Source of the DNA: Sandaracinus sp. | GTDB lineage: Bacteria > Myxococcota_A > Polyangia > Polyangiales > Houyiibacteriaceae | Direction of reading: 5' to 3' | Assembly: GCA_002699025.1 (NCBI GenBank) | Contig: PABA01000182.1 | Location: forward strand, 62,001 to 126,000 | DNA: 64,000 bases | In this document: piece after piece, positions 48,028 to 51,247 of the stretch | Layout of the letters: every line of letters begins with the position of its first letter | How positions within the stretch are numbered: the stretch's first letter is position 1 | The notes under the pieces: generated by a model | Seen by the model: the letters and a program-made list of their open reading frames with translations, nothing else | Told to the model about the DNA's origin: nothing | Database searches by the model: none | Position numbers and translations under genes: made by a program

Positions 48028-49227
48028 TCATCGATCCTCCGGCACGGGCACGTCAGCCGACGGCACCGTGAACCAGAAGGTCGACCCCTCGCCGGCGACG
48101 GACTCCACGCCGATCTCGCCGCCCCACCCTTCGACGATCCGCCGGCAGATGCTCAGGCCGATGCCCGAGCCCGGGATCTCGTCGTGCGTGTGCAGCCGAC
48201 GAAAGACGTCCCAGATCACCTCCTGCTGCTCCGCCGTCATGCCCATGCCCTCGTCGCGCACGGCGACGCGCACCCAGGCCCCCTCGCGCTCGGCCTCCAC
48301 CGTCACCCGCGGCCGGTCCGGCGAGTACTTCAGCGCGTTCGAGATCAGGTTCGTCAAGAGCCGCGTGACCCGTGGGGCGTGCGCGCGCACGGCCGGGAGC
48401 GGGGCCGGCCGGACGACCTCCGCGTCCCGCTCGCGCAGCGAGGCCACGAGCGCGTCCAGAGCCGCCTCGAGGCACGCCTCCGCCTCCACCTCGTCCGCGG
48501 GCCCGAGGCTCTCGCCGGCGCGGCTGAGCTCGAGCAGATCCTCGATCATCCGCCGCATGCGCTGCGCCCCCTCGAGCGCGTGGCCGACGTAGCGCTGTCC
48601 CCGCTCGTCGAGCGCCTCCCCGAAGCGCTTGTCGAGGAGGCCCACGTAGCTCGAGACCATGCGCAGGGGCTCCTGGAGGTCGTGGGAGGCGACGTAGGCG
48701 AACTGCTGCAGGTCGCGGTTGGAGCGCGCGAGCGCCTCGGTCCGCTCCCGGACGCGCAGCTCGAGCTCTTCGTTGCTCTCGCGGAGGCGCGCCTCGGCGG
48801 CCTCGCGCCGCTCGACCTCGGCCGAGAGATCCGCGTTGGCCGCGGCGAGCTGGGCCGGGCTGGGGAGCCGAAGCGCGGCCGGGAGCAGGCGCCAGAGCAC
48901 GATGGCCGTGGACGCGGAGACCAGCGCCGTGACGAGCTTCAGGACCCCCTCGAGCCGGTACATGGGCGTCCAGACCGTGACGATGTCGAAGAGGTGCGTC
49001 GTGCCGCAGGCCAGGATGAACGCGCTGAAGAGCAGGAAGACCCGGCGGAAGGCGAGGTCCTCCCGGCGCCGGACGAAGACGAGCAGCGCCAGGGGGATCG
49101 TGAAGTAGGCGAGCCCGATGCCGAGGTCGGATCCGACGTTCAGCCAGAGGATCTCCGGGCGCCAGAAGTAGCAATGCCCATGAGGCATGAAGTCGGACGC
49201 GAAGAGGTTCGACAGGAACTCGATCAT
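48028..49227 (-). CDS. ethylene-receptor-like sensor histidine kinase
   Basis: A 399-residue protein. The N-terminal 115 residues hold three membrane helices that match the ethylene-binding domain of plant ETR1: GSDLGIGLAYFTIPLALL has the equivalents of ETR1 Asp25, Tyr32, Ile35 and Pro36 (here Asp34, Tyr41, Ile44, Pro45). FILACGTTHL has the Cu(I) ligands Cys65 and His69 (here Cys74 and His78). A coiled coil, an H-box (VASHDLQEPLRMV), an N-box (NLISNALKYS) and G-boxes (DEGMGM, GSGIGLSI) complete an active kinase. Related domains are known in cyanobacteria and other bacteria, so ligand binding is plausible but unproven. It is divergent from a response regulator with about 33 nt between. Confidence 0.85.
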   Translation of the reverse strand: MIEFLSNLFASDFMPHGHCYFWRPEILWLNVGSDLGIGLAYFTIPLALLVFVRRREDLAFRRVFLLFSAFILACGTTHLFDIVTVWTPMYRLEGVLKLVTALVSASTAIVLWRLLPAALRLPSPAQLAAANADLSAEVERREAAEARLRESNEELELRVRERTEALARSNRDLQQFAYVASHDLQEPLRMVSSYVGLLDKRFGEALDERGQRYVGHALEGAQRMRRMIEDLLELSRAGESLGPADEVEAEACLEAALDALVASLRERDAEVVRPAPLPAVRAHAPRVTRLLTNLISNALKYSPDRPRVTVEAEREGAWVRVAVRDEGMGMTAEQQEVIWDVFRRLHTHDEIPGSGIGLSICRRIVEGWGGEIGVESVAGEGSTFWFTVPSADVPVPEDR

Positions 49228-49236
49228 CGGATAACC

Positions 49237-49244
49237 TTACGTAA
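49237..49244. promoter_or_regulatory. TTACGTAA palindrome between the divergent signalling genes
   Basis: An 8-bp perfect palindrome in the 33-nt gap between the kinase start (49227) and the response-regulator frame. It contains TACGTA, which could serve as a -10 box in either direction. Confidence 0.4.
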
Positions 49245-49260
49245 CGGAAGGGGGAGCCGC

Positions 49261-49665
49261 ATCCAGGTTCTCTTCGCCGAGGACAACCAGGCCGACGCCG
49301 AGCTCCTGATCGAGGCGTTCGCCGAGATCGGCGCCGAGGTCGAGTGCGTCGTGGTCGCGTCACCGCACGCCTTCTTCGAGCAATTGCATCGACAGAATTG
49401 GGACATGCTCTTGGTCGACCTGCGTCTCGGACCCTACGACGGCCACGAGCTCCTGGAGCGACTGCGCGGCGAGCGGAAGCTCGGCCCCGAGACCCTCGTG
49501 GCCGTCCTCAGCTCCTCCGCCGCCCCCGCCGACATCGAGCGATCCCGCAGGTACGGTATCCATGGCTATCTTCGGAAACCTTTCACCATCGAGCGCTGGG
49601 TGGAGCTCGCCTCCGACCTGGTTCTGGCTGGCACATCACCCCAGAGTGGGGGTACCAAAAACTAG
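49261..49665 (+). CDS. single-domain response regulator with no canonical start codon
   Basis: A receiver domain of about 134 residues: IQVLFAEDN with the acidic pocket, LLVDLRLGPYDGHELLE (phosphoacceptor Asp), AVLSSSAA (Thr/Ser switch) and LRKPF (conserved Lys). It resembles the phytochrome-type, output-less regulators. The domain begins right at the 5' end of the frame, but no ATG, GTG or TTG lies there. The frame upstream runs back into the opposite-strand kinase gene. GGAAGGGGGAG stands 4 nt before an ATC codon at 49261, taken here as a possible start; a base change from GTG to GGG at 49252 is another reading. Confidence 0.6.
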   Translation: MQVLFAEDNQADAELLIEAFAEIGAEVECVVVASPHAFFEQLHRQNWDMLLVDLRLGPYDGHELLERLRGERKLGPETLVAVLSSSAAPADIERSRRYGIHGYLRKPFTIERWVELASDLVLAGTSPQSGGTKN

Positions 49666-49681: not shown

Positions 49682-51247
49682 GTGGCGCTGGATCCGCTCC
49701 GCGGCCGAAGCCCTTCTCAAACCTCGATCTCCCGCGACGGACACCGGATTCTCCTCGTGGAAGACAATCGGGGAGACGCCGATCTCGTCGAGGAGTTCAT
49801 CGAGGAGTCGCCGCTCCAGGCCGAGCTCGTCGTCACGCCTCGGCTCGGGGAGGCGCTGGAGCTCCTCTCCCAGATGGAGTTCGACTGCGTCCTCCTCGAC
49901 CTCGGGCTGCCGGACGCGCGCGGCCAGTCCGCGGTGAAGCGCTTCCGGTCCCGGGCGCCGCGCGTCCCCCTGGTCGTGCTCACGGGGTTGGAGGACGCCG
50001 GGACGGCCCAGGCCTGCGTGCAGCTCGGCGCGCAGGAATACCTCGAGAAGGCGCGGCTCGACCCGCGCTCACTGACGCAGGCGGTGAGCCTGGCCATGCT
50101 GCGGGTGAGCGAAGCCCGAGCGCGGCGCGAGCTCCTCCAGGCCGACCGGCTGCGCTCCGTGGGCCTGCTCGCGGCCGGCGTCGCCCACGAGATCAACAAC
50201 CCCCTCACCTACCTCGAGGTGAACCTGGAGCACCTGCAGGCAGAGCTCGAGGAGAGCCTTCCCGCGGACGCGCGCTCGCCGCGCGAGGTCGTCGCCGAGT
50301 GTCGGGATGGCGTGGGACGCATCGGACGCATCGTCGGCCGCCTCAACGGCTTCGCGCGGACCGACGAGGGGACGCCGCCGAGCCTGCTGCACGTCGACAC
50401 CATCGTGCAGGACGCGCGCCGCCTCACGCGGCACCAGTGGCAGCCCTACTGCCGCTACGAGGAGCAGCTCGGGATGACGCCGCCGGTCCTGGGCTGGCCC
50501 GGGGAGCTCACGCAGGTCCTCGTCAACCTGCTGCTGAACGCGGCGCATGCGATCGGGAAGCAGGGCCGCGGGCGCATCCGGGTGTCCACGCGCCGGGTCG
50601 GCGAGCACGTGGAGATCGCCGTGGAGGACGACGGCCCCGGCATGCTCCCCTACGAGCTCCGGCGCGCCTTCGACCCGTTCTTCACGACGAAGCGGCGCGA
50701 GGAGGGGACGGGCCTCGGCCTCGCCCTCTGCCGGGAGATCGCCCGACGCCACCAGGGCACGCTCGAGGCGGAGAGCGCACCGGGCGCCGGCGCCACCTTC
50801 GTGCTGCGCATCCCGATCGGGGAGCCGCGGGCCGTGAGCCACGAGCGGCTCAAGCCCGTGAAGCGGGACGCACGGCGCCGAATCCTCTTCGTGGACGACG
50901 AGGCGATCCTGCGGCGCTCCGTGGAGCGGCTCCTGGCGCGCCACCACGATCTGGTCATGGCGGCGGACGCCGAGAGCGCCATCGAGCGGCTCGAGGGCGG
51001 GGCGCCCTTCGACCTGGTGCTCTGCGACCTCACCATGCCCGGCATCGGCGGTCGGGGGCTGTGGCGCTGGATCGGTGAGCAGCGTCCCGAGCTGGTCTCG
51101 CGCTTCGTGCTCATGAGCGGCGGCATGCCCGACGAGCTCCCGGCGGGGCTCCCGGCGGCGCCGCGGCTGAGCAAGCCCTTCCGCCGCGAGGAGCTCGAGC
51201 AGGTCATCGCCGCGGTCGGCGCCAGCCGCGACAACGAGACCGACTGA
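49682..51247 (+). CDS. hybrid histidine kinase, REC-HisKA-HATPase-REC
   Basis: About 521 residues from GTG 49682 (GTG 49646, overlapping the regulator gene, is an alternative). It has no membrane helix. An N-terminal receiver (RILLVEDNRGDADL, CVLLDLGLPDA, VVLTG) comes first, then a kinase core with AAGVAHEINNPLTYLE (H-box), VNLLLNAAHAIG (N-box), EDDGPGMLP and EEGTGLGLAL (G-boxes), and a second receiver (ILFVDDEAILRR, LVLCDLTMPG, LSKPF). All phosphotransfer residues are present. Starting 16 nt after the response regulator, it probably belongs with the ethylene-receptor-like kinase in one signalling circuit. Confidence 0.86.
   Translation: MALDPLRGRSPSQTSISRDGHRILLVEDNRGDADLVEEFIEESPLQAELVVTPRLGEALELLSQMEFDCVLLDLGLPDARGQSAVKRFRSRAPRVPLVVLTGLEDAGTAQACVQLGAQEYLEKARLDPRSLTQAVSLAMLRVSEARARRELLQADRLRSVGLLAAGVAHEINNPLTYLEVNLEHLQAELEESLPADARSPREVVAECRDGVGRIGRIVGRLNGFARTDEGTPPSLLHVDTIVQDARRLTRHQWQPYCRYEEQLGMTPPVLGWPGELTQVLVNLLLNAAHAIGKQGRGRIRVSTRRVGEHVEIAVEDDGPGMLPYELRRAFDPFFTTKRREEGTGLGLALCREIARRHQGTLEAESAPGAGATFVLRIPIGEPRAVSHERLKPVKRDARRRILFVDDEAILRRSVERLLARHHDLVMAADAESAIERLEGGAPFDLVLCDLTMPGIGGRGLWRWIGEQRPELVSRFVLMSGGMPDELPAGLPAAPRLSKPFRREELEQVIAAVGASRDNETD

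Follow-up and report, generated by a model that had tools for sequence, protein, structure and literature searches.

Among described systems, those closest to the start region considered here are the S. aureus genes ccpN and cvfC1, which have non-canonical starts (AUA and AUU, respectively) with an extended Shine-Dalgarno (SD) sequence, as reported in PMC13009471, and the Streptomyces gene sigR, whose GTC start is repressed by IF3, with Streptomyces infC itself beginning with ATC, according to PMC5472188. The latter source also describes how gene finders assume ATG, GTG or TTG, so that such genes are missed or mis-started. A comparator for gene content is the Azospirillum ethylene receptor AzoEtr1, which is adjoined by a response regulator, AzoRR-etr1, with a predicted length of 135 amino acids (PMC11819568), and the pairing of an ETR1-like receptor with a regulator is thus known in bacteria. 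A similar set of genes in a divergent layout is found in the window, a 64,000-nucleotide stretch of DNA from Sandaracinus sp., as follows.

48028 to 49227, minus strand: ethylene-receptor-like histidine kinase, divergent (ETR1_N PF25487, 6.6e-40; HisKA PF00512, 3.5e-12; HATPase_c PF02518, 1.5e-25).
49261 to 49665, plus strand: response regulator with a single domain, which counts 134 codons when read from the ATC and ends in a TAG stop (PF00072, E=2.6e-15).
49682 to 51247, plus strand: hybrid REC-HisKA-HATPase-REC kinase, with a GTG start 16 nt past the regulator stop.

The divergent kinase has an N-terminal ETR1_N domain above the cut-off together with HisKA and HATPase_c, which places it among the ETR1_N kinases, and it is the one ETR1_N match of the genome. 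Its sequence contains a CGTTH stretch, a putative counterpart of Cys65 and His69 of ETR1, and ethylene binding is only putative. The regulator belongs to the receiver family by its domain match and by its acidic, phospho-acceptor and lysine residues, and D8, D53 and K106 are invariant in an alignment of seven sequences. As with AzoEtr1 and AzoRR-etr1, an ETR1-like receptor lies next to a regulator that has no other output motif, though the AzoRR-etr1 gene is located just downstream of the receptor gene (PMC11819568), whereas here the regulator is divergent and 33 bp separate its start from the 5' end of the kinase. The locus is an ordinary two-component cassette of the known ethylene-receptor type, and its rare AUC start is credible.

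What stands out is the missing canonical start in combination with the SD, the exact coding onset and the kinase start. The frame of 49261 is that of the receiver sequence RIQVLFAEDN, and the claim of the earlier note that no in-frame ATG, GTG or TTG lies between the divergent kinase start (49227) and RIQVLFAEDN agrees with the sequence; in all three plus-strand frames, no ATG, GTG, TTG or CTG begins at 49201-49266, and no usable ATG, GTG or TTG is present at the coding onset, as is characteristic of a gene with a non-canonical ATN start. The absence of a canonical start is therefore a real fact of the sequence. The features of the region are the following.

49237 to 49244, no strand: perfect palindrome TTACGTAA between the two divergent starts, with 2 copies in a 2.35-Mb sample of the genome.
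49246 to 49254, plus strand: extended SD GGAAGGGGG, 9 bp with the assumed anti-SD tail, two of them G-U.
49250 to 49274, plus strand: possible hairpin from folding, with 49250-49258 pairing with 49266-49274 and the ATC in a 7-nt loop.
49261 to 49263, plus strand: proposed initiation codon ATC, 6 nt past the extended SD; none of the frames has an NTG that begins at 49201-49266.

The strong ribosome site that the earlier note had placed 4 nt before an ATC codon is indeed there, as GGAAGGGGGAG at 49246-49256 followed by CCGC and then by the ATC at 49261. Within it, GGAAGGGGG pairs with the textbook anti-SD tail over 9 bp, leaving a 6-nt spacer to the ATC, with a duplex energy of -13.0 and -13.3 kcal/mol in two computations; the ATN codon is thus preceded by a strong and well-spaced SD, given an anti-SD tail that is assumed to be the textbook one, the organism's 16S match being partial and lacking the 3' end. 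An equally strong SD occurs in 2.3% of 1,444 called genes, where whichever canonical start close to the onset was best stood for the gene, and a duplex this strong is present at 0.43% of 6,000 random positions of the sampled genome. The site stands out less when the anti-SD is narrowed to 8 nt, since it is then matched by 12.6% of 786 genes and by 2.1% of 7,168 ATC triplets. Among the ordinary genes here, the weaker start codons do not come with stronger SDs (medians of -6.3, -5.9 and -5.5 kcal/mol for ATG, GTG and TTG), so that no general compensation by the SD is seen. The predicted hairpin would mask the SD, though its stability is not clearly greater than that of shuffled sequences (z of -0.69 and -1.24), and a sigma-70 scan of 49050-49450 gave no promoter-like site. 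The combination of an ATN start with an extended SD is like that of S. aureus ccpN and cvfC1; those starts were mapped by Ribo-Ret, are conserved, and belong to different proteins (PMC13009471).

The position of the start is indicated by the cumulative coding score, in which codons are scored against the other frames, and which peaks locally exactly at ATC 49261 (62.9) and drops upstream. The highest score of the whole open frame is 63.1 at 48367, in sequence antisense to the kinase, and a first onset rule that took the maximum over the whole open frame placed the onset of the regulator there, with the gene then lost as an overlap; the X-drop rule that replaced it, giving 49261, was chosen after the score profile of the regulator had been seen. 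The frame is open far upstream and contains ATG 49180, ATG 49174 and GTG 48994, all within the antisense kinase gene, so that the regulator might start at ATG 49174 or 49180 with an N-terminal extension of 27-29 residues. The in-frame ATGs and the open frame are in keeping with such a start, but the SDs at 49174 and 49180 are weak (-2.5 and -0.5 kcal/mol), ATA and TTA codons would have to be read (25 and 3, respectively, in 601,983 called codons), and the coding score drops upstream of 49261, and we consider it highly improbable. TTA is nearly absent from the genome sample and the window, and ATA likewise.

At the other end, the first in-frame ATG, at 49405, had been described as lying past the phosphorylation pocket, which holds for D8 of the acidic pair and fails for the phospho-acceptor D53, which the ATG precedes by 4 codons; GTG 49351 and TTG 49384 are also in frame, both ahead of it. 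Initiation inside the receiver at any of these three canonical codons would cut off beta-strand 1 and the acidic pair, which are kept in the alignment, and the coding signal extends up to 49261, which leaves an internal start barely credible. All starts other than 49261, taken together, are very unlikely. The earlier note had offered ATC or ATA as the rare start, and it is the ATC that is best supported, by the strength and spacing of the SD, by the local coding peak, and by the ATC of the genome's own infC. The ATA at 49231 is not supported, with an SD of -4.3 kcal/mol at 10 nt spacing and a TTA codon that would be read.

A missing canonical start by itself proves little, since for 61 of 1,618 called genes the 25 codons next to the onset as computed contain none, mostly, we think, through onset error. 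The onset method is noisy: in 90 of 867 genes, no canonical start came within 13 codons of where the onset had been placed. The screen covered a sample of 2.35 Mb, about 25% of the genome, with 1,618 genes analyzed of the 1,679 called, and the sample was not a random one in that it takes in the window and the infC contig. It passed 23 rows, 18 with CTG or ACG and five with ATN, and the only clean cases of a strong SD with an ATN start are infC and the regulator, the three others having been dropped by eye: L156 sits inside a frame that is open for 1,536 codons upstream, in L259 a GTG lies at a distance of 11 codons from the onset, and L159 is ambiguous. Four candidates of the missing-start screen were inspected in detail. 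For the candidate L190, an ordinary ATG further in is most likely. A coding frame at a contig edge (L173:97-1188) has no canonical start near the computed onset.

A strong SD is equally expected of an ATG gene that carries one wrong base, and the genome is a draft assembly (9.24 Mb in 238 contigs), suggesting the possibility that the assembly or consensus is in error, that the true codon is canonical, most simply at 49261 itself, and that the gene is an ordinary one. A single base would do, the regulators of the related cassettes start canonically, and the odd start was selected for its oddness from thousands of genes. Against this, an indel cannot simply restore a nearby start, since no NTG begins at 49201-49266 in any frame to be shifted in and it would take a substitution, or an indel that creates a new NTG, and start codons are not generally damaged, since in the 1,618 sampled genes infC is joined by a single clean ATN case. 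The particular alteration proposed earlier, a GTG in place of GGG at 49252, is disfavored, because such a start would adjoin the AAGG of the SD without any spacer. We regard a base error as unlikely overall, although it carries appreciable weight as the main alternative.

The related cassettes also bear on the history of the start. In L032 and L111, the ORF lists give kinase, regulator and hybrid kinase in that order on one strand, and the matches in L110 agree; two genomes of the same order have almost the same cassette as a Sandaracinaceae record. The kinase here is inverted relative to L032 and L111, where the regulator sits downstream on the same strand, which indicates that the locus was rearranged. 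Kinase matches at 1e-60 are found in 3 of 183 genomes of the order and in 11 of 377 genomes of the phylum, our own genome counted, and a close orthologue of the regulator was not found, with matches at E<=1e-12 in 2 of the 377 genomes, of which its own is one, the 377 being drawn from a larger group with just 4 and 11 first-look candidates scored per genome. All 17 of the N-terminal receivers near related kinases have a canonical start at most 12 codons from the aligned receiver. These 17 come from 20 receiver rows taken from 29 kinase loci, with second receivers and partial or distant ones (for example L042, L045 and L144) set aside, and with three receivers fused behind the kinase (L047, L053 and L090) outside the count; they include the N-terminal receiver of a hybrid (L148), a minus-strand gene with TTG that is not a cassette regulator (L035), and two near-identical groups (L032, L110 and L111; L112 and L113). 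Since all 17 start canonically, the ATC was, on this sequence comparison, probably absent from the ancestor of the wider cassette.

The start might instead reflect a recent and genuine start-loss mutation, leaving the ATC as a near-null allele that has no selected function and is decaying. There is a precedent in an E. coli O104:H4 stock, in which an ATG to ATA change in rpoS arose on laboratory cultivation and RpoS was up to 5-fold lower (PMC12864459). The rearrangement of the locus is consistent with this, as is the atypical codon usage of the regulator, with a GC3 of 0.828 (1.5th percentile of 526 genes); its coding score per codon is at the 9th percentile. Opposed to decay are the receiver, which is otherwise intact and keeps its key residues, and the frame, which is free of stops and frameshifts, and we judge start loss to be decidedly improbable.

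Precedent for ATC initiation is found in the same genome, where the main infC has no canonical start before the domain and begins with ATC GCC behind AGGAGG (L114, C90:41382-41591). An ATC start of infC is common in this order: 19 of 25 loci (our own and 18 of 24 relatives, with the SD in relatives judged by eye) have the codon at the same place, 17 to 21 codons ahead of the domain motif, and infC matches were obtained in 26 of 28 genomes, 25 of 30 loci being read, with the second copies L115 and L141-L143 and the partial match L140 left out. One of these 19, L122, has an additional ATG five codons into the frame, and in several of them a GTG or TTG is present far upstream. The exceptions are L132 with ATT, L137 with ATA, L139 with ATG, and L130 perhaps with CTG, while L127 is unclear and L138 was not parsed. 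That our own infC and those of relatives begin in this way indicates that AUC initiation exists in the lineage, which, as judged from these sequences, very probably uses AUC to start IF3. The regulator is like infC, with its ATC, ATT and ATA starts, in having an ATC behind a strong SD in the same genome, and it differs in that the infC codon recurs across loci and encodes IF3, whereas here the gene is a signaling gene without a known orthologue. Our genome also contains a second IF3-like gene (L115, C13:11723-11926), which has a canonical ATG behind AGGAG, and a second IF3_N match is present in G001, G007, G010 (partial), G014 and G025; two IF3 proteins with a division of labor are possible.

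Taking these observations together, we lean toward the AUC start of the regulator being real and used, and the most likely situation is weak translation of the regulator from AUC. In this mechanism, the extended and correctly spaced SD would hold the ribosome while the AUC at 49261 is read as formyl-methionine by the initiator tRNA, and IF3 would reject most of the AUC complexes, resulting in low output. An AUC start should be inefficient and sensitive to IF3, which would keep the regulator scarce. The GTG of the hybrid kinase at 49682 has a weak SD of about -2.8 kcal/mol at best and is 16 nt past the regulator stop, and for this reason the hybrid kinase is perhaps translationally coupled to the regulator; if its translation depends on ribosomes that finish the regulator, the AUC may set the level of both proteins. 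We infer use of the codon by ribosomes, low output, IF3 sensitivity and coupling from these features. The comparison with Streptomyces sigR is again apt, as it too is a regulatory protein with a non-canonical start and an extensive ribosome-binding site, although its start is GTC (in 32 of 34 Streptomyces species) rather than ATC, and repression by IF3 is experimental for sigR and inferred for the regulator here (PMC5472188).

A further suggestion, which we put forward as doubtful, is that the AUC evolved together with a compensating extended SD as a means of keeping the regulator, and the coupled hybrid kinase, scarce and tied to the level of IF3. If that were true, a myxobacterial-type genome would have, next to infC, a second gene that is AUC-initiated and controlled by IF3, and this would be, to our knowledge and with a literature search aimed at topics other than rare-start response regulators, the first such two-component regulator. 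If the start is real, a signaling protein would be added to the genes with non-canonical starts, a short list on which every member is a candidate for IF3 control, and it would be an AUC-initiated regulator in a lineage whose own infC starts with ATC.
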